Of a DNA stretch of 64,000 nt, positions 683-62,574 are shown piece by piece (within the stretch, counting starts at the first letter, position 1; every line of letters starts with the position of its first letter). A model generated the notes under the pieces. The model ran no database searches. It had not been told where the DNA came from and saw nothing but the letters and a program-made list of their open reading frames with translations. The position numbers were made by a program, and so were the translations under genes. Source of the stretch: Gigantopelta aegis (taxonomy: Eukaryota; Mollusca; Gastropoda; Neomphalida; Peltospiridae); contig NC_054704.1 of the NCBI RefSeq assembly GCF_016097555.1, positions 80,057,049-80,121,048 on the forward strand, in the 5' to 3' direction.

Positions 683-3600
683 GTATTTGACGTCAAACAT
701 AGGATTGGTGTGGTATTAGAGCGGGAATCTTTGCCAACTTTTTGGTTGTCAGGAATTGCCAAAAAAATACATAGGTTGGTCTCTGACTAATGAGAGCGTA
801 TTTATGTCCAAATGTCCGTCTAGCTCTCTTACAGTCAGAGTACTCGGGCTAAGAGGTGTGCAGCAATACAAAAAAAAAATCTTAGTTTTCTCCAGTCGGA
901 CAAAAATTACACGTTTTAACTAAAAATTGCCTTTTTCTTTCTTTTTAAAAAAAATATTTCTGGGGAACAAATGCTTATCTATACAGAACTATATTGCAGT
1001 ATATATTTTTATTTACAAGACACAATCTCATGGCATTGATAAAACCATGTTGTGGTGGGGGGTTTTCACATTTCATAATGTCAATCTATGTTTAATACAA
1101 TGTTCCATGCAGTTGCTAAAATAATTATCTTAAGCATATCATTTATAAATACATGGGACAATATTTCAAAATATTTGGTAAACAGATGTTAATTCATATG
1201 ATTTTCACGAAGGTAACCAACTGTACTATATATTTTTCATTTGGATGACTATTTCGAGTAGATACTGCAATTAAATTAATTATTTCTCTGATACTTTGTA
1301 AAGTTACTTTCAGAATATGTAAATTGTAATGATTCACCAGATAACCGATTGGCATTTTGTTTGAATTTAAATTTCCATAACCAACACGCGAATATAATAT
1401 AGGTTCTTTAAAATAGTGTGTGTGTATGTGTGTGTGCGTGCGTGTGTGCGCGCTTACAAAACAGACTGCTCTTTTAAGTCCTTTATGTTTTAATTAGAGT
1501 TGCGTCCCTTGTTTTTAAGGTGTCGCGTTTCAAGATGTCTGCGCCTTATGAGGTACACATGCAGTGATAATTAATTGAATATTATTAGATCCGAACAGTG
1601 TATAATAAGTCTATTATATAATGTTAATATTTCCCAATTAAATCTTATCGCTTTAAAAAGTTTCATTTCAATTCATCACATTAAATACAAATGTCACACA
1701 CAAATTCGTCAAGAACTATTATCATGGCTGTCTCACTCTCAGTGGGTCACCCGAAATATGCCAAAAACCGGGTTTTTGGCATATTTACAATCAAAAAAAA
1801 ATTTCGCAATCAAAAAAACTCACAAAAACCATAATTATGCCAAAATCGTATCCAATAAGGGTTTTTTTTATATACTTTATTGATAGTTTATCAATATTAT
1901 ATGATTTACAATTTATATGAAGCACAAATATTGTTGTCAGTCCTAAACATATGCATACGTCCGTTTCCGCCTTGTTTGTAAAATGCGGTTTTTTCTTTGG
2001 GAAGTGGGTTTTTTGAGTGTAAATATTGTAAAGCGGGTTTTTGGTATATTTACACTCAAAAAACCTTTTCCCAAAGAAAAAACGGAAAAATATCCGCCCG
2101 GTCCCCCCTTCCCCTAACCCTAACCCTAACCCTAACCTTAACTCCAACCCTAACCCCAACCATAATCCCAACCCTAACCCTAACCCTAACCCTAACCCTA
2201 ACCCTCAACCCTAACTAAAAATAATAATGGAGGGGACCGGGCGGATATTATACCGAAAAAACGTCACTAAAGCAATAGCTATTGTTCGAAACACACGTGT
2301 TAATTATGATTGGAGCTTCATAAACTCTAAAATCTGTTCGGTCCCGCTTTTGTGAGGTTTTTTGATTGGGGAAATGGGTTTTTTATTGTAAATATTGTAA
2401 AGCGGGTTTTTGGTATATTTACACTCAAAAAACCTTTTCCCAAAGAAAAAAACGTCACTAAAGCAATAGCTATTGTTCGAAACACACGTGTTAATTATTT
2501 CGTATAGTACAATCCCGAAAGCTGCTCATCCAATACGTGTAATAATTGTGATGTCTTGGGTGTATTTTTGGGTATCTTGGGAGTAAATAGTCGGACCCTA
2601 AAATCAGTCCTGTTCCGCATTTTACAAACAAGGCGGAAACGGAGGTATGCATATGTTTAGGTCTGACAACAATATTTGTGCTTCATGTAAATTGTAAATC
2701 ATATAATATTGATAAACTGTCAATAAAGTATATAAAAAACCCTTATTGGATACGATTTTGGCATAATTATGGTTTTTGTGAGGTTTTTTGATTGCGAAAA
2801 GGTTTTTTGATTGTAAATATGCCAAAAACCGGGTTTTTGGCATATTTCGAGTGACCGCTCTCAGTCAGTGTCTGTATAATAATAATGTATTCGATCGTCA
2901 CCTATTTACGAATACACGGAGGAACTAGTCTATAGTCTGTCCCATTGTAAATAATTTCAGTTTGGTTTGATGTAAGAAGAAAAGTAACAGTGTTTTGGAA
3001 ATTATTAAAAAAAACCCAACTTTGTGTGCAATTAAAGAATTTACAAATCATTAATCAATCGGCTCAGAAATAAATAACTTGTAGTTAATTTCATAATATG
3101 AAAAAATGTGATCTATAGTCCAAACCAAATTGTTAACAACTACAATAAATTACTCTTCTACCTTTAATTACCGTTAAGATTTCCCCCAACTTTTGTCCAG
3201 GCACAAATTGTGAAAAATCCATTATACTTACAATGACTCTATCTGAGTTGAATGACACAGACACACACGAGACTGTAACAATGTCACCGATATCGATTTC
3301 GCTGAGATCGCATAGGTAAAAATACATGCAGTTTTTTGCTGTCTGCCATTTTGATTGTTTTTGGAATACTCTTCAAGAGGGGTGGATCAATATGACATAT
3401 GACAACAACGTCATGACATGCGCTAAGGTACAACGCACTCGCCATGACGCAGATTAATTATGTCACATAGATAGGAGGCTTCCACCCCATTTGAAGAATA
3501 TTCCAAAAAAAATTAAAATGGCGGACAGTAAAAAATTGTATGTATTTTGTCCTAAAAGATCTTAACAAAGTCGATATAGCATTATAGGTGATATAGTTTC

Positions 3601-42700: not shown

Positions 42701-45700
42701 AAAAGGGCACTTGGACATTTTGAGGGCACTTGAACAATTTTTGGGGGGGACGTGTCCCCCTGGTCCCCCCCCTTGGATCCGCCCATGTACAATGTCATGT
42801 AAATGTATTTATTCAAATTAATATATCTATTTTGCATTAAGAAATGTTATGGGGGGAGGGAAAGGATGTTTGTCAAGTGTTGTCAAAATCTATCTTCACA
42901 CAATAATAAAAAAGGAATTCAGATTGAGAATTTTTTTTTTACTTCAAATTTGGAAATAAAAAATAACAATGCTTTGGAATGGTGCCGATTATCGGAGTCT
43001 AGAAACCATGTGACCTGCTTGAACCTCAAATGGATATAGACTTAAATATAATAACACAAACTACTCACACACATTTCAGTTCTCCATACTCATTGTCCCA
43101 CCCGTATGAAGGAAAACTGTCTGGTTTGCCAATTGTCACCTCCTGACCTTTGACCCTCACTAAAGGGTTGTCTTTCACAGGTTCACCTGGCACAAGTTTT
43201 CATCATTAAGTTACAAAGTTTCTTTAAAATAACCACATTTAAAAATATTCTACATACCATATATTTAAGCCCATTTAATAATGACCATACTTATCGTAAC
43301 ATAACATTTTACAATTGTGTATCCCTTATATTTTGTAATGCTAATCCCTTTAAAATTATATTCTCTTGAAAATATTCAATTATTGTGATGTAATTTTATC
43401 AACATTACTACATTACCAAGAAAAGTAATTACTTTTCGTTAACTAATTCCAATTAAAACAAACAAATATATTTCATTTTATTTAGAAATTATTAGAAGGT
43501 GACCATCACTTTAAGCGTGTGTGATGCAATTGTTTCCCACACATATAATTCTTTTAAGAAGAGAAAGAACATTTGCTTTACACTAATGATAATACATTAC
43601 AAATTCATAAAAAATAAAACAATATGACACTCGCAACTAAGATAATGCACCTTTAAGGTTAGTCTATTCTGAAAAAACTATTGTAATACATTTGTTAATT
43701 TTCATGTTTAATCAAAAGATTTATGTATTTTGTCATGGGCAACCAGGATATAACATGACGACAATTATTATCCCCTAATTTGTATACCACACTTGACTGG
43801 GCCATAAACCCATCCATCTGGCTTGGTTACCATGTCAACTGGAAGCTGACGAATGAGAACAGAGGATGTTTCAAGATGGATCCTCTCATGCTCCATTCCC
43901 ATCAGAAGAGCCCACTGAAAAATATTCAATATCAATCAGAGTTATCTCCCCATCATACTCCAAAAATATAAATATACTCTTCAAAAGAAGAAACGCAAAA
44001 CCACATTGTCGTAACATTTGGAGAATTGATTTAATTATTGAATGGTGAGTCCATTAATTACCAAATGTTGCAGGATTGTTCACAATTCACTCTAGTCCAT
44101 TGTGATTAAGTGACAGGACACACCACCAAGTTCAAGGTCATCTGGAGTCAATACCGGGTGTGGCCTCCGCGTGTGTTGACAACTGCCTGGCACCGCCTGC
44201 CCATTGAAGCAACCAGAGTACGGATGACGTCCCGGGGGATGGTGGCCCACTCGGCCTGCAAGGCTGCTGCCAGCTCGGGCAGGGTCTGGGGCTGTGGTTG
44301 TCGCTGTCGGAGGCGTCGGTCCAACTCGTCCCATAGATTCTCAATTGGGTTCAAATCCGGTGATATCGATGGCCAAGGAAGGACATTAATGTTGTTGTTC
44401 TGTAGGAAAGCCGTTGTGAGACGTGCTGTGTGAGGCCTGGCATTGTCATGTTGGAACACTGCGTTGGCGTTGGCCATAACTGGAACGATGTGTGGCCGGA
44501 GGATCTGGTCAATGTAGCCCTGTGCATTCAGGTTGCCCTGCACGTGGACCAGGTCAGTTCTGCCAGTGTGTGAGATAGCTGCCCACACCATGACACTACC
44601 CCCGCCGAATCTGTCCACTTCCTGCACGCAGTTTGCCGCATAACGTTCACCACGACGCCTATACACGCGACATCTTCCATCATGACGTCGGAGCAGAAAT
44701 CGGGACTCGTCACTGAACCACACCTGTCTCCATCGCAGTTGAGGCCATTGTCGATGAATCTGGCACCACTGCAGTCGGAGTCGACGGTGTTGTGGTGTTA
44801 AGATGACACCTCGAACTGGACGTCTGGCACGAATTCCTACCTCACGTAGGCGGTTCCGTACGGTCTGGTCGGATATCCTGCGCAAACCTGGTATTGCTGC
44901 GGCTGTGGAGGTGGCAGTAGTCAATCGTTCCCGAAGGTGGCGTACCCAGATGTAGCGGTCCTGCCCGGGGGTAGTGACCCGTGGTCGACCGGATCTAGGG
45001 AGGTCACGTGTTGATCCATGTTGCTGGTAACGGTCCCACAGTCTGGAGATGGTGCTTGGGGACACATGGAATGCCCTGGCAACGGCCGTTCTGGATTCGC
45101 CTCCGTCTAGTCGGCCGATGGCATTGTTTCTCTGCGGTTCACTGAGACGTGGCATGTCCTGGATTGTCAACTGTCGGCCAGATACAGAGGCCAGGCAAGC
45201 GAACACCCTGCACTTTTATACTGTCGGTGTTCATGTTGCACGTGCAGACAACGCACGTGCAGTGGTGACATGGTTTGCACGTGGCTGCGTTTTTGTGAAT
45301 ATTCACATTTTGGAACTTTATTGTACAGTAGCTGCGTTTTATCGAATGTAACCGTGGGAATGTGTTTGGGACATGCAATGACCTTATATTCACAAAGCAT
45401 GAACCGGTAGGAAACATAAAATCGGAGTTATAACCCATTTGTACCCTTTTGCGTTTCTTTTTTTGAAGAGTATATTTTATTCATTTCAACTTCAGCCGAT
45501 TTTCAGGGCTAGCTCTGGCACTCACCAAATTTGAATTTTATCTTAATTTGGTGAAATAATTTCATGTAATAGTTGACATTTTGTTACAAAATAACTGTTT
45601 CTGCAATTTCTTAAAGTTCAATAGATAATTTGACGACATCTGCTCACCCAGAGCTAGCCCTGGATTTTAATGCATTATATCCAATTAAGGTTCAAGCACA

Positions 45701-53500: not shown

Positions 53501-56500
53501 AAAAAAATTCCAGCATTGATTTCGGGAATTTCATCAGTCACGTAATGAATAGGAGTATGTTCTGCTTTAGAAAATGTATGGATTTAAATGTGAAAATACT
53601 AAGGTTTTGTGTAAATTGTCAAAAATAAATTACTGCATTCAAGCATTTGTGCCAAATTTACTTCTGCTTCAAGGCGTCGGCTCGACGTTGGTAAGAAAAA
53701 TACTTTAAGTTAGAAAAATATATACCACTCATACATATGTGTCATTCTGCCTGTGACTGGCCTCGGTGGCGTCGTGCTTAGGCCATCGGTCTACAGGCTG
53801 GTAGGTACTGGGTTCGGATCCCAGTCGAGGCATGGGATTTTTAATCATTCTGCCTGTGACTGGCCTCGGTGGTGTCGTGGTTAGGCCATCGGTCTACAGG
53901 CTGGTAGGTACTGGGTTCGGATCCCAGTCGAGGCATGGGATTTTTAATCATTCTGCCTGTGACTGGCCTCGGTGGTGTCGTGGTTAGGCCATCGGTCTAC
54001 AGGCTGGTAGGTACTGGGTTCGGATCCCAGTCGAGGCATGGGATTTTTAATCATTCTGCCTGTGATTGGCCTCGGTGGTGTCGTGGTTAGGCCATCGGTC
54101 TACAGGCTGGTAGGTACTGGGTTCGGATCCCAGTCGAGGCATGGGATTTTTAATCATTCTGCCTGTGGGCAAGTGCATGATCCTTAGCTGCTAATGGTAA
54201 AGTTAAGCAGGTTTCACCTAGAATACTATATATTGTCAGAATTATCAAATGTTTGATATCCAATGATTAATAAATCAATGTGCTTTAGTGGTGTCATCAG
54301 AACAAAACTTTAAAACTATTTTTCTCAATATCTAAAAATATGTGAAATACTAAACAGCCATGGATAAAAACAAGGCTTTAGATCTTACTTAGTTTAGTAC
54401 AACAGGTAAGGTGGATATTCGTTTTTTTTATTCTGAGATCTGGAACAGGGTCCTTTAGTTGCAAAAAAGTTATTAACAACTGCTGAAAAGTTATGGACAT
54501 TCAAATATTCATTTCAACTTATATTCATTTAATTGATGCTTAACATTCCAATGATTTAAGCTGAAATGTTTGTGATTATTTTGGGCATACCTATTTTGCA
54601 CCTTGACTTTTGTGCAATTTAAAGCCCTGAATTTTTTTTATTGATATTCTAACACCAACACAGCTTTTCTTTCAACAATCAAGCCTACCTTTCAGTGACG
54701 TGAACAGACTCTCATACAAATCATAGGTGTTTATAAAGTAGTCTTGAAGCTGTCTGAAAACAAAAGAAAATAACAGATACAAGTCTTAATAAAATTCACA
54801 ATGTTTGGGGGTTTTATTTTAAGATTACGACAAATATGTAACCTGTTACTACATGTATTTCATGTGCAAAAAAACAACAAATGGGTTAAGCAAAACCCTA
54901 GACTTGCACATATTGTCTAGTGGAAACAAAACTTGGTCTACCAATTTTCAGAGGTTTGAGAACAGGTACAAACATAGATTTGCTTCCCTTCTCAAATGAC
55001 CTTCAAATTTATAAATATACCCACGAAACAGAAATTTACAGTTCACCTTCCAAAACCTAAAAAGCAATTTTCTATAATTAGTGTTTGGCCAAGTGGGTAG
55101 GGGAGGTGCAGGAGAAATTTTCATAATCAATGTGGAAAATTTTAATTTTAAAGGGACAGACCTTAATTTTTTAAACACTACGACATATTTTTCACTAAGA
55201 AAGCCGTTTTGAATCATTTAAATTAGGAGTACTTACATTTTATTATTTAGAATATTCAGTTTCTACACTTGATGTGGTTCTAGTCATCCAGGTTTTTGTA
55301 ATAACCCAAAATGCATTTTTCGTAATTCTAAAAACGCACGTTTATCTCAGAACTAAGGGTTATCGAGACTGGCTCTAGTCTATTTTTAGACAATATTTTC
55401 AGGTTTAAACATTACAATCTTCAGCTTTTCTCTGTTATAACCGTATCCAAATGTTTCGCAAATGTAGATTAACTAAACTTACTGTCCATTTTCACAGGTT
55501 AAAACTAGGGTCTGCGCCTTTAAAAGTAGGACGAAAAATGTAAAAAAAAATTAAAACTTTATTTTTGTCTTTAAACATTAATGTATAGCAAGTGTAGCAT
55601 TATGTTGTTTAAAATTTCTTTTCAAAGATAAATTTACATGACCATCAATCAATTATTGATAAAATGACAATATTGCATGTACTTACTGCTTGGTATACCT
55701 GGACAGGTCCAGTGGTTTGAGTGATGATGTCAAAGTGACACAATATTGCATGTACTTACTGCTTGGTACAACATCTGGACAGGTCCAGTGGTTTGAGTGA
55801 TGTAAAAGTCACACAATATTGCATGTACTTACTGCTTGGTACATCTGGACAGGTCCAGTGGTTTGAGTGATGATGTAAAAGTGACACAATATTGCATACA
55901 TGTACTTACTGCTTGGTACATCTGGACAGGTCCAGTGGTTTGAGTGATGATGTCAAAGTGACACAATATTGCATGTACTTACTGCTTGGTACATCTGGAC
56001 AGGTCCAGTGGTTTGAGTGATGTAAATGTTAGCTGACCGGTGAGAACTTTGGTCAACATGTTGCAATTTTTTTTTTTAAATGACAGCAAAAAACTGAAAA
56101 CAAGAAGAAAATGTATGTATTACATTCAATACTTTCTAGAGGTCATGTGTGTGTGTGCATGTGTGTGTTTGTGTTCATGTGTGTGTGTGTGTGTGCATGT
56201 GTGTGTGCATGCATGTGTGTGTATACGTGCATGTATATAAACGATAGGTGCAAATATAAAAGCACCTTGAAAAGCATAACTTGTATCAGAGAAACAACTG
56301 TGCAATTTATATATGAATTCAGTGGCTAGCATGTAGAAGTATCTATAAATGTCTGCATCAGGAAGTAGATTTAAGTCTCTACCATAACACTTTACGAAAC
56401 TCATCATGAGGCCTTGATTTAATAACCCTGATGAAACTACTAACATCCCTTGTTGTAGAGTGGCAGTCCTCCTATAACAAAACTCACGTCGCTGTTTTCG

Positions 56501-57002: not shown

Positions 57003-57809
57003 ATGGAATTTGAATTAATTTCAAACAAAAAGGCAAAAAGTGGCGTTTGGGAAAATTTTCAACTGAAGAAACGAAAAGACACGGGCGAAATTCAGGAGGG
57101 GTTGGCAGTTTGTAAAAGATGTAAAATGGACGTTCGATTTAGTGGTGGAACTACTAATCTTAGCACACACTTGAATCGTCATCACAAAATTAATACAAAA
57201 AGTGGTACAGCTTCGACTACTTCATCTACACAGAAGAACGTATCAATGGCTGCAATGCTCCCACAAACCATACCGAGCATTTTCTTACAGACAACGAAAT
57301 ATAAAACTACCGGCGAAAGACATAAAACTGTCACTAAAGCTATCGGAAGATTTATAGTTAAAGATCTCCGACCGTTCAGCATTGTGTCAAACGAAGGTTT
57401 CAAAGATATGGTTGAACAACTTGATCCGAGGTACCACTTACCATCACGCACTTATTTCGCTGAAACTGTCATACCTAACATGTACCAGGAATGTCGCGCT
57501 GACGTTATTTCCAGTCTCAAGGATGTCCCAGTAGCACTCACGACTGATGGATGGACAAGTAGAGCAACCCAGTCTCATGTTACTATAACAACTTCTCACA
57601 TCACTGAAGACTGGAACCTGAAGTCATTCGTACTTCAAACAAGAGAATTGCCAGAGAGCCATACAGGTGTAAACATTGCCCAAGTTTTAACTGACGCAAT
57701 TTCTGATGGGGGCCTTAACAAGAACCCTCCTTTGGTCACTGATAATGCGGCAAATATGGAAGTTGCAGCGAGAGAGGCAGGTTGTATTCCTCATATTGGA
57801 TGCTACGCT

Positions 57810-58209
57810 CATGGGCGGATCCAAGGGGGGGGGGGGACCAGGGGGACGCGTCCCCCCCAAAAATTGTTCAAGTGCCCTCAAAATGTCCAAGTGCCCTTTT
57901 TGTTTGTAGAATTTTTTTTTTTTTAAGTAAACAATAATTATATTGTAGATAAATGAAATCAAGATTTTCGTGTACATGCGCAAGCTTGCAGATATGTGTC
58001 TGTGTTATTGAGTCTCAATGGGGCCCCATTGAGGTTCTAACGCGAGTGACGCCAATTTACTTCATTATTGCTAGTATATTATGACGTAGAGCTGTAGGAA
58101 TTCATATTAATTGTAAATATCAAAACTTGTAGTAAGGTGCCCTTTTGACGAGTCAATGTGCCCTTCTTTTTTGGTCCCCCCCTAAAAATATTTCCTGGAT
58201 CCGCCCATG
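57810..58209. mobile_element. MITE with CATGGGCGGATCC ends, copy 2, inside the hAT gene
   Basis: Ends CATGGGCGGATCC / GGATCCGCCCATG and target duplication ACGCT (57805-57809 and 58210-58214). Removing it restores the hAT reading CYAHTLNLA, which proves the borders. It differs from the copy at 42392-42787 only at a handful of bases and in G-run length. Confidence 0.93.
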
Positions 58210-59735: not shown

Positions 59736-62574
59736 GTACAGCCCGAACATAAAAAATGCGATATTTTCTAAAAAAAAAAAAATGTTTGTCCTACATTTAT
59801 ATTTTTTACATATTTAAATACATCATATCGAGGTGTATCTTCATGCTAAATATGAACAGTATACACCTCGGCATTAGCATCAGAGTTTTGGTTTTGTCTC
59901 CGGGTTACTTTCGGGCTCCGGGCTGTAAATTGGTCGACCGGTCTGGTCTGGCACCATCAGTTTCTCCACCCTCCGACTCGCTATCCGTTTTTTCTTCAGT
60001 ATCACTGTTGTAAGTAAATGTGTGTCTTTCTTCATTTACTAACAGCTCATATTGATACGGCAAAACGTTTTGCGAACGAACACTCATTGTTTTGGTAAGC
60101 TGTGCAAGTCTTAGATTCTTTATGAGTGGTACGGACTAATGCTTTTAAGTGTAAGGCTTCAGATCAAGCGACGCGTCTCTGACGTCAGGGACCTCGTGAT
60201 TGCCCTGCTCATTAAAGATCGGCAATTTCCGCTAAGAGCTCGTATCTGGGGTTCTTTTATGGAGATATTTTAAGTAATTAATTTTTTATATATTTTTTTT
60301 TTAGGTGATTCAATTTATAATTAATTGTACATGGTTGGTGCCAAATATGGTTTACGTGACATGAATTCTGTGTCACGAATTCTTGCTCGTGTACGGCGCG
60401 TCGTATCCTTTTTTCACCGGAGTACGACTGCTGCAGCTTTGCTTAAAGAGAAAACCAAACAGCAAGGATTTAAAAATGTTAAGTTACTTCAAGATGTACC
60501 TACACGTTGGAATTCTGCATGTGATATGCTGGAGAGGTTTCTTGAACTGCAGCCCGCAATCTATGCCGCACTAGTGGCTAAAGAAATCCGTAGCAATGTG
60601 AATGACATATCAACATTATCTGAGGCAGATATCACGATAGCAGAGGACATTGTGTCGTGCCTTCTTCCACTGAAAGCAATTACTACTGTATTGTGCACAG
60701 AGAAGATGCCTACTGTATCAATCATTCTTCCACTCCAGAGGAAATTGTTGACAAGTGTCTTGGTGTCTACAGAGATGGATTCTGATGTTATTAAACAGAT
60801 GAAGAAGGCCATGGCTTCTGATTTGGAAAGCAGGTAAGACTGTTTTAACTTTTAATGAATATAATCTTGGAGTGTATTGCACAATCATAATATTTAAATG
60901 TAAGGCTCCTGTCCAAATGATTGCTCATTGACTAATGACAAGTATATCAAAAGCTGTGGTATGTGTGTGTTGTCCTGTCTGTTGGAAAATGAAAATAAAA
61001 TGTCCTTTCCTGTAAATGAAATACATACTGTATACTGTTACATTTTACAAAGGGTATGTTACTGAATTTAAATGTTGCTCCAAATATTGAATACTCAATA
61101 TTACTCAATATATTCATTACATTATCTGTATATTACGTACCAAAGCGGGTGGGGTGGGGGTCTGGGTGTTACACCAACAATACATATTGAATAGTGAATA
61201 CAACCACTAAATGTCACTGATGTTGGTTTCACAAATAATATGCACGCCCTTACTTCCAGGTATAGCAATAAGCAGGAGTTTCTGCAAGAGTGTACTGCAC
61301 TGGATCCCCGCTTTAAAGTGTCATGTGTGAATGCAGAGCAGCAACATGAGGTGTACCACCGACTTGCAGTTGAAGCAGCTAATATGAAACCACGACTTGT
61401 GTCTGTGAAGGTGGAACCAACCACATCAACCACAACAGTTGCTGATGACCTACCTGCATTGCCAGTCATGCTACCAGATATGGAATCAGCTGGTAACTTT
61501 TGTCTTTCATTCAATTACCTTTTTCCAAAAATGTTTGTTTGTAAGTATAAGTGTGACAAAACGTTATGACATGTGTAGACACTTGAAAAACTGTCAGGTT
61601 GGAATAAATAATGGATACTTTAATACTTTTAAATTTTTTAATGTTACCCTGTACCCACAAAATAATTACTGGTTTTAAATTATTTTTTAACAAATAAAAA
61701 CAAGGCAAATGAACATATTATTTTTTATTAAAACAATTCAAAATTCAAATTACCGCTAAAGTAACTTTTTTATGTCTACTATCATTCAGTCACAATATGA
61801 GACTGGGGGCCAATTGTAAAGTTATGTATTGTATAAAGTATGAGAAATATATTCACTGTTTACTGTTATTTATTTCTTGGAAATTTAATCTTCTTGATAT
61901 TTAATTGTATTCATATTAAAAAATATATCAGAAGAAATTGGCTCCTTATTTACTCCTGTTGAGTCAGTGTTTACTTTTTAAAATGTTGTTCTAGCAACAA
62001 ATCATTTATACTATAGCAATATACAGGGCTGTTCTAATACCATATTTCAGATGCACAGTCTGATGTCAAACCAGTTGATGTCACTACAACCTCGACAAAG
62101 ATCACAAGTGACCTCACTACTCAGTCTAGTTGTGCCAGTGGTGGTTTAGCCTCCATTTTAGGTGATGTTGTTTTCATAAAGGAGGAGATGTTACCCAAGA
62201 AATCCAACTTGGAACAGGCAATATTCGAAATTGATGTCTTCAAAGGTCACGCGCTTATACCGATGTCAGAAGACCCATTGGTATGGTGGATATAACACCA
62301 CTGGCAGTTTCCTCTTCTCTCACAGTTAGCCAGGAAACGGTTGTGTATTCCAGCCACATCAGTACCATCAGAACGCGTGTTCAGTACAGCTGGGGACATT
62401 GTCACAGCACAGAGGGCCGCACTCAATCCTGAAGTTGTGGACATGCTCATATTCTTGAAGAAAAATATGGCCTAAAACATTTAACCTGACACCTGAAACT
62501 AATAAAGATCATTAAAAAATGCATGCCTCCTTATTTTATTAAAAAAACAACCCATAAATATTAAATATAAATAA

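Follow-up and report, generated by a model that had tools for sequence, protein, structure and literature searches.

The window, by which is meant the whole stretch of 64,000 nucleotides of Gigantopelta aegis DNA that was analysed, holds a short element with inverted ends and a telomere-type interior, and the features of the locus are as follows, in window positions.

1744..2857, no strand assigned: older host repeat that has long inverted ends, contains internal repeats and is flanked by the 8-bp duplication CTCTCAGT at 1736-1743 and 2858-2865
1984..2307, no strand assigned: host block split by the MITE
2076..2083, no strand assigned: left copy of the 8-bp target duplication GAAAAAAC
2084..2254, plus strand: telomere-repeat MITE of 171 bp, a family A copy, with the CCCTAA strand forward
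2084..2106, plus strand: left terminal inverted repeat of 23 bp, starting with GG
2112..2215, plus strand: degenerate (CCCTAA)n array of 17.2 units with 83% matches
2216..2231, plus strand: 3' subterminal tail, common to family A, which indicates the orientation of the array
2232..2254, minus strand: right terminal inverted repeat of 23 bp, terminating in CC and equal to the left one at 21 of 23 positions
2255..2262, no strand assigned: right copy of the target duplication GAAAAAAC, exact
2353..2498, no strand assigned: paralogous host block without the insert, giving a view of the empty site, with GAAAAAAAC at 2445-2453

An earlier sequence-only reading had placed a MITE with 23-bp inverted ends, an 8-bp duplication and a CCCTAA interior at 2084..2254, and all of this was confirmed with the coordinates exact. 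Extended by one base at either end, the strand from 2084 to 2254 folds end to end (z = -6.76). The 16-mer end occurs at only two places in the window, both within the element, with one further match at 3 mismatches, and the 63.8 kb of the window outside the MITE contain 12 CCCTAA and 9 TTAGGG units. The two host blocks correspond over 1984-2082 and 2353-2451 (90%) and over 2256-2307 and 2447-2498 (52 of 52 positions). The same reading had held that the insertion could be read exactly from an insert-free duplicate of the host block; the duplicate is present, but the junction homopolymer has seven A in the insert-free GAAAAAAAC and six at the filled site, and the event is therefore readable to within one base. 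A 252-bp probe from the left end of the 1744-2857 repeat found at least 84 matches in the genome, at least 45 of them long, at 91-100% identity, both counts being lower bounds with the best 40 of 138 candidates scored. The 45 long matches include the window's own two arms; most span 215-255 bases, the shortest pair of partial ones exceeds 140 bases, and 36 of the 45 start at window position 1743-1746. Because the host block lies inside 1744-2857, a repeat with many matches in the genome, the MITE is nested inside an older dispersed repeat. Elsewhere in the window are an open 352-aa Tc1/mariner-type transposase (44148-45206, minus strand; Pfam DDE_3 and HTH_Tnp_Tc3_2), a piece of a hAT-type transposase (57003-57926, plus strand; BED finger and Hermes DNA-binding domain in Pfam) and an open frame resembling a further hAT transposase piece (60325-60837, plus strand), for which a Pfam search returned no match. 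Four near-identical 103-bp units occupy 53742-54167, and their 76-81-bp stretches are dispersed in other fetched loci.

A search of the genome (1.149 Gb in 5216 contigs) with the exact 16-bp end found 848 places, 428 forward and 420 reverse, against 0 + 0 for the reversed control. The regions fetched for inspection numbered 60 and took in every place listed for contigs C1 and C2, in total 90 of the 100 listed and 90 of the 848 overall. With up to four substitutions permitted per end, 49 of the 60 regions contained a copy with both full ends; extra single ends in L186 and L202 were left out of the counts. At least two CCCTAA units were present in all 49 of these copies and at least three in 44, the range being 2-18. 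Telomere-type repeats adjoin the end in 56 of the 60 regions, including seven in which one of the ends is damaged or absent (L176, L179, L180, L213, L216, L218 and L219), and were absent from the end in the other four (L189, L197, L204 and L226). It had been anticipated that a lack of other copies, or copies without CCCTAA, would reduce the window element to a one-off insertion; with 848 ends genome-wide and none in the control, and with CCCTAA in 49 of 49, that reading is ruled out. Both-ended copies are 90-391 bp long (median 159), one of them, L188, being a 391-bp relative with only two CCCTAA units. GG and CC are both found at the extreme ends of 42 copies, the other seven deviating at one end by one or two bases. 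The end followed by CCCTAACC within 30 bp gave 189 forward matches and none in the control; since nested matches swell the reverse count, 486, and each listed forward match has its own start, about 380 such elements are estimated genome-wide from the forward count by strand symmetry. Family A thus has the attributes of a MITE family: a length below ~500 bp, no coding capacity, inverted ends, target site duplications (TSDs), many copies and ends shared with a transposase-coding relative.

Evidence for movement comes from the flanks. An exact 8-bp flanking duplication was found in 21 of the 49 copies; in a further copy the duplication is broken by one mismatch within a G run. When the left flank of one copy was paired with the right flank of another, none of 2352 combinations matched at 8/8, and shifts of the right flank from -12 to +39 yielded no exact 8-bp matches in the 49 copies. 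A recognisable TSD is absent from 27 of the 49, in which the ends are mostly well conserved. L169 and L208 have flanks in common (94% over 1584 columns, element included) and elements that differ in length by 24 bp; because the flanks are shared and the array length is different, the two are probably a single insertion duplicated along with its surroundings. L173 sits in a copy of the 1744-2857-type host repeat from which, judging by alignment positions, tens of host bases are missing on each side. Recombination, including through the arrays, or deletion of the target at the site is possible for the remaining copies without a TSD. A reading with a TA-type target at the inner TATCC was weighed and rejected, as the insert-free copy and the 21 exact TSDs place the ends at GG...CC. 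Elements of the hAT and P groups also produce 8-bp duplications. These two identities were dropped because Merlin genes with matching ends were found in the genome.

The genome contains 53 matches to the Merlin transposase family PF12762. One element of 2452 bp (L268 with L272) has ATCCACCCGGTCCCC at both ends and GG...CC termini; its open first exon matches PF12762 (E 9.2e-11) and its second exon contains LIENRWW, while neither a TSD nor CCCTAA was found in it. Relatives of this first exon in protein databases number 1044 at E <=0.001, and among the 120 listed five are named to species, from Aplysia, Elysia and Mytilus, in keeping with a molluscan host. At L229 broken transposase pieces lie beside a family A end, of which only one was found; the PF12762 match falls exactly there (E 3.7e-6), and short transposase pieces by themselves gave no PF12762 match. 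A sister family, B, also bears on this. Its first 86 bp align to the 5' end of L268 in 71 of 89 columns and, in 71 of 87, to L281, the 5' end that precedes the array-bearing gene L277; the telomere array of family B starts directly after these 86 bp. Merlin elements are characterised, in the available text of a study of the superfamily, by terminal GG, terminal inverted repeats (TIRs) of 24-462 bp, TSDs of 8 or 9 bp and a DDE_Tnp_IS1595 domain (PMC8101967). The window copy has GG...CC termini and a TIR of 23 bp, one below the published range; the duplication is exactly 8 bp in 21 of 49 copies, and the domain (PF12762) is present in the relatives L268 and L229, the MITE itself being too short to code. 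As family A matches Merlin elements that code for a transposase in the same genome in its ends, 8-bp duplications and subterminal sequence, it most likely consists of Merlin-derived MITEs.

All 48 copies in which the 3' tail was found have their array oriented alike with respect to it; L188 showed no such tail. Degenerate units recur, with CCTTAACTCCAACC in 18 of the 49 copies and CCCTCAACCCTAACTA in 26. Given this single orientation and the recurrence of degenerate units, the array looks to have been inherited with the element and not freshly added at each site, and the recurrent units argue against site-by-site addition by telomerase or break repair. The longest perfect CCCTAA run varies from 1 to 16 units across the 49 copies, a spread that points to later expansion and contraction of the array.

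Arrays of the same kind also occur within Merlin genes. A non-random set of 14 of the 53 PF12762 loci was examined, comprising L229, chosen by its end, five loci with long open frames and eight whose matches stop near profile position 106. An intron after NHSENFVG or a variant of it was present in 12 of the 14 and was not seen in L267 and L269. CCCTAA units lie on the gene-sense strand of this intron in 4 of the 12 intron-bearing copies, numbering 13 in L270, 7 in L274, 2 in L275 and 19 in L277, with longest perfect runs of 5, 2, 1 and 5 units respectively, and TTAGGG was not found on that strand in these four introns. Against the window background of 12 CCCTAA and 9 TTAGGG in 63.8 kb, intron counts from 7 to 19 are greatly elevated. 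The intron of L280 contains one unit, and those of L229, L268, L271, L273, L276, L278 and L279 contain none. The second exon reads LIENTWW in L270, L274, L275, L277 and L280, LIENRWW in L229, L268, L273 and L276, and LIENSWW in L279. The intron arrays run CCCTAA from 5' toward 3', as the MITE cores do. This is most simply explained if the MITEs retained the intron array upon loss of the exons, and family B fits this at its 5' end; the core may long have belonged to the transposon instead of having been picked up at a chromosome end. For family A the step from intron to MITE is hypothetical, because the Merlins with matching ends (L229 and L268) have no intron array and the arrays belong to another group of Merlin genes.

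Two other origins of the core have to be weighed. It could have been captured from a chromosome end, or as filler of a double-strand break inside a Merlin copy, and then amplified by transposition, which is unlikely although not far-fetched: telomeric repeats inserted during break repair are described for primates and rodents in the available texts of two studies (PMC7215372, PMC8537989), and in family B the array begins abruptly ~86 bp from the 5' end, at an internal-deletion junction. Against this, arrays in the same orientation already lie in the intron of 4 of the 12 related Merlin genes, so that a separate capture is unnecessary, and the one orientation in 48 of 48 tailed copies fits a single ancestor. 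An improbable origin is expansion, through slippage, of a short seed of the kind seen in the 391-bp L188/L236 relative, with its two CCCTAA units near the 3' end. L188/L236 and L284 do have, close to a Merlin-type end, short runs with the same orientation to that end, the number of units varies from 2 to 18 among copies, and L169 and L208 differ by 24 bp within common flanks, but slippage alone does not explain the arrays in the transposase intron. L284 (281-380) has the Merlin-type end GGCAAAAGTACCG with three TTAGGG units ~60 bp inward and resembles L188/L236; together they possibly represent a third telomere-bearing family.

A broader proposal, to be taken as tentative and falling somewhat short of an even chance, is that telomere repeats are an inherited working part of a Merlin transposon lineage, found in the transposase intron, as the MITE core and as the main source of interstitial arrays. 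The sequence CTAAC is branch-point-like in splicing, and the repeat may have been retained for the CTAAC present once per CCCTAAC unit, or for the docking of a telomere-binding protein.

Interstitial telomere repeats are commonly taken as marks left by chromosome fusion or break repair, and karyotype history is inferred from them. Exact matches to (CCCTAA)4 number 1000 genome-wide (501 + 499, overlaps counted apart), compared with 2 + 0 for the reversed control. The first 100 listed of these places, covering C1 and the first 29.9 Mb of C2 (~77 Mb), fall by our own grouping into 34 clusters. Fifteen of the 34 lie in or adjoin family A copies already fetched, and the other 19 were fetched in turn. 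Among the 19, four have family A-like ends (L250, L257 with one end, L258, and L260 with a single weak end) and three belong to family B, with ends like GGAAAGTGTACCGCCCGTTCCCC (L249, L251 and L261); the family B TSD is exact in L251, has one mismatch in L249 and is missing in L261. Merlin-type ends of either family thus accompany 22 of the 34 clusters (21 excluding L260), and neither kind was found in 12. The proposal of the sequence-only reading that DNA transposition spreads CCCTAA repeats in this genome is well supported within the ~77 Mb sample, in which about a third of the arrays are left to other routes.

The 12 arrays without such ends are varied. Their matches to the Merlin-bearing loci fall outside the Merlin exons, in repeats present at many loci, and a link to Merlin was set aside for them. 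L264 (196-475) is an inverted-repeat element with hAT-like ends CAG(G/T)GTTTCTGC, no TSD and a telomere array inside; a relative ~20 bp shorter, in L235, aligns across most of it. The array in L262 sits amid inverted copies of another repeat, and L252 and L265 have in common a minisatellite whose unit, like GAGGGAACATAGAGCTGAGGAA, alternates with short CCCTAA runs. In L255 (reverse complement) the array lies between two copies of the 17-bp direct repeat TGATAAAGCAACTTCTA, which was spotted by eye, a scripted direct-repeat filter having returned none there, and this is possibly a break-repair insertion.

That interstitial arrays chiefly mark chromosome fusions or break repair, with the MITE a minor passenger, is very unlikely. 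The 12 clusters lacking Merlin-type ends and the direct repeat around the L255 array, of a kind that a break-repair insertion could leave, speak for such a history, but 22 clusters carry MITE ends, and by our own arithmetic from 848 ends in 1149 Mb well under 1 of 34 arrays would by chance have an end within ~300 bp. An array without transposon ends or a fixed-length TSD, as expected from break repair, is also not what family A presents. The notion that no transposon is involved, and that the inverted ends form a palindrome by chance on either side of a telomere-like array, can be discarded with near certainty, for although 27 of 49 copies have no TSD, both the flank-pairing control (21 of 49 against 0 of 2352) and the reversed-end control (848 against 0) reject it.

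Taken together, it is very probable that most interstitial telomere arrays in this genome were put in place by the transposition of a multi-copy family of short inverted-repeat elements with a (CCCTAA)n core, likely Merlin transposons with internal deletions. A Merlin transposase would cut at the GG...CC ends, and the element, array included, would be pasted into a new site with duplication of 8 bp, a putative mobilisation in trans; the array would afterward lengthen and shorten through slippage. The core itself would descend, less certainly, from the intron CCCTAA array of some Merlin genes, having survived deletion of the exons. A long telomere array was not found in 11 contig-end stretches, one of them mostly N, and TTAGGG is presumed to be the telomere motif of the species.

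In the available text of a 2019 review, transposition of mobile elements is only a possible route for interstitial telomere repeats (PMC6410037). In the present genome the ends, the duplications and a paralogous insert-free site let this route be followed in individual copies. A mussel shows dispersed interstitial FISH signals and yet no arrays of substantial length in its assembly, according to the accessible part of that study (PMC12818792), and short telomere-bearing MITEs are a candidate explanation for patterns of this type. Before internal telomere signals are interpreted as fusions, they should be examined for transposon ends.

Among known systems the Merlin superfamily is the closest, with its 5' GG, 8-bp TSDs and, in the same genome, PF12762-coding relatives with matching ends. 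Some described Merlins contain tandem repeats, and the word stem 'telomer' is absent from the main text of the Merlin paper as far as it was available (PMC8101967); the window copy differs from described Merlins in being non-autonomous with a telomere-type core. MITEs with tandem repeats are known from the GTCY MITEs of insects and a MITE of Xenopus, in the available text of PMC6947457, and these likewise are short inverted-repeat elements that carry and disperse a tandem repeat, whereas here the repeat is the telomere motif and is present also in the transposase intron of relatives of the likely parent. The telomere-bearing elements (TBEs) of Oxytricha are, in the portion of PMC12242761 that was available, Tc1/mariner elements of the ciliate germline with (G4T4)4 repeats in their terminal inverted repeats, and Herrick 1985 appears by its title on Oxytricha TBEs in the references of PMC9942856. 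They are similar in being DNA transposons tied to telomere-like repeats at very high copy number and, as described there, different in that family A ends GG...TATCCGCCCGGTCCCC, has its array internally and has a relative with a PF12762 transposase. Membership of the TBEs was ruled out, since the relative has PF12762 and not a Tc1/mariner transposase and the repeats lie outside the terminal inverted repeats. The satellite-like repeats of the Pacific oyster resemble the present case as mollusc tandem repeats on non-autonomous elements, but are borne by Helentrons and not by inverted-repeat transposons, and no telomere motif is named in the accessible text (PMC7492417).

Matches to a 15-mer of the end in viral contigs and prokaryote genomes (at least 159 loci) had, among the matches listed, neither an inverted pair within 600 bp nor two consecutive CCCTAA or TTAGGG units, and were set aside as chance matches for lack of both. 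No report of a Merlin or a MITE with a telomere core was found among the listed titles and abstract openings of the openly licensed literature, and a Merlin MITE as the main carrier of interstitial telomere arrays appears to be new. The arrays resemble the interstitial telomeric sequences attributed to break repair in being short and interstitial; as described in the available texts, those are tied to break sites (PMC7215372, PMC8537989), whereas here 22 of 34 clusters are found with transposon ends.
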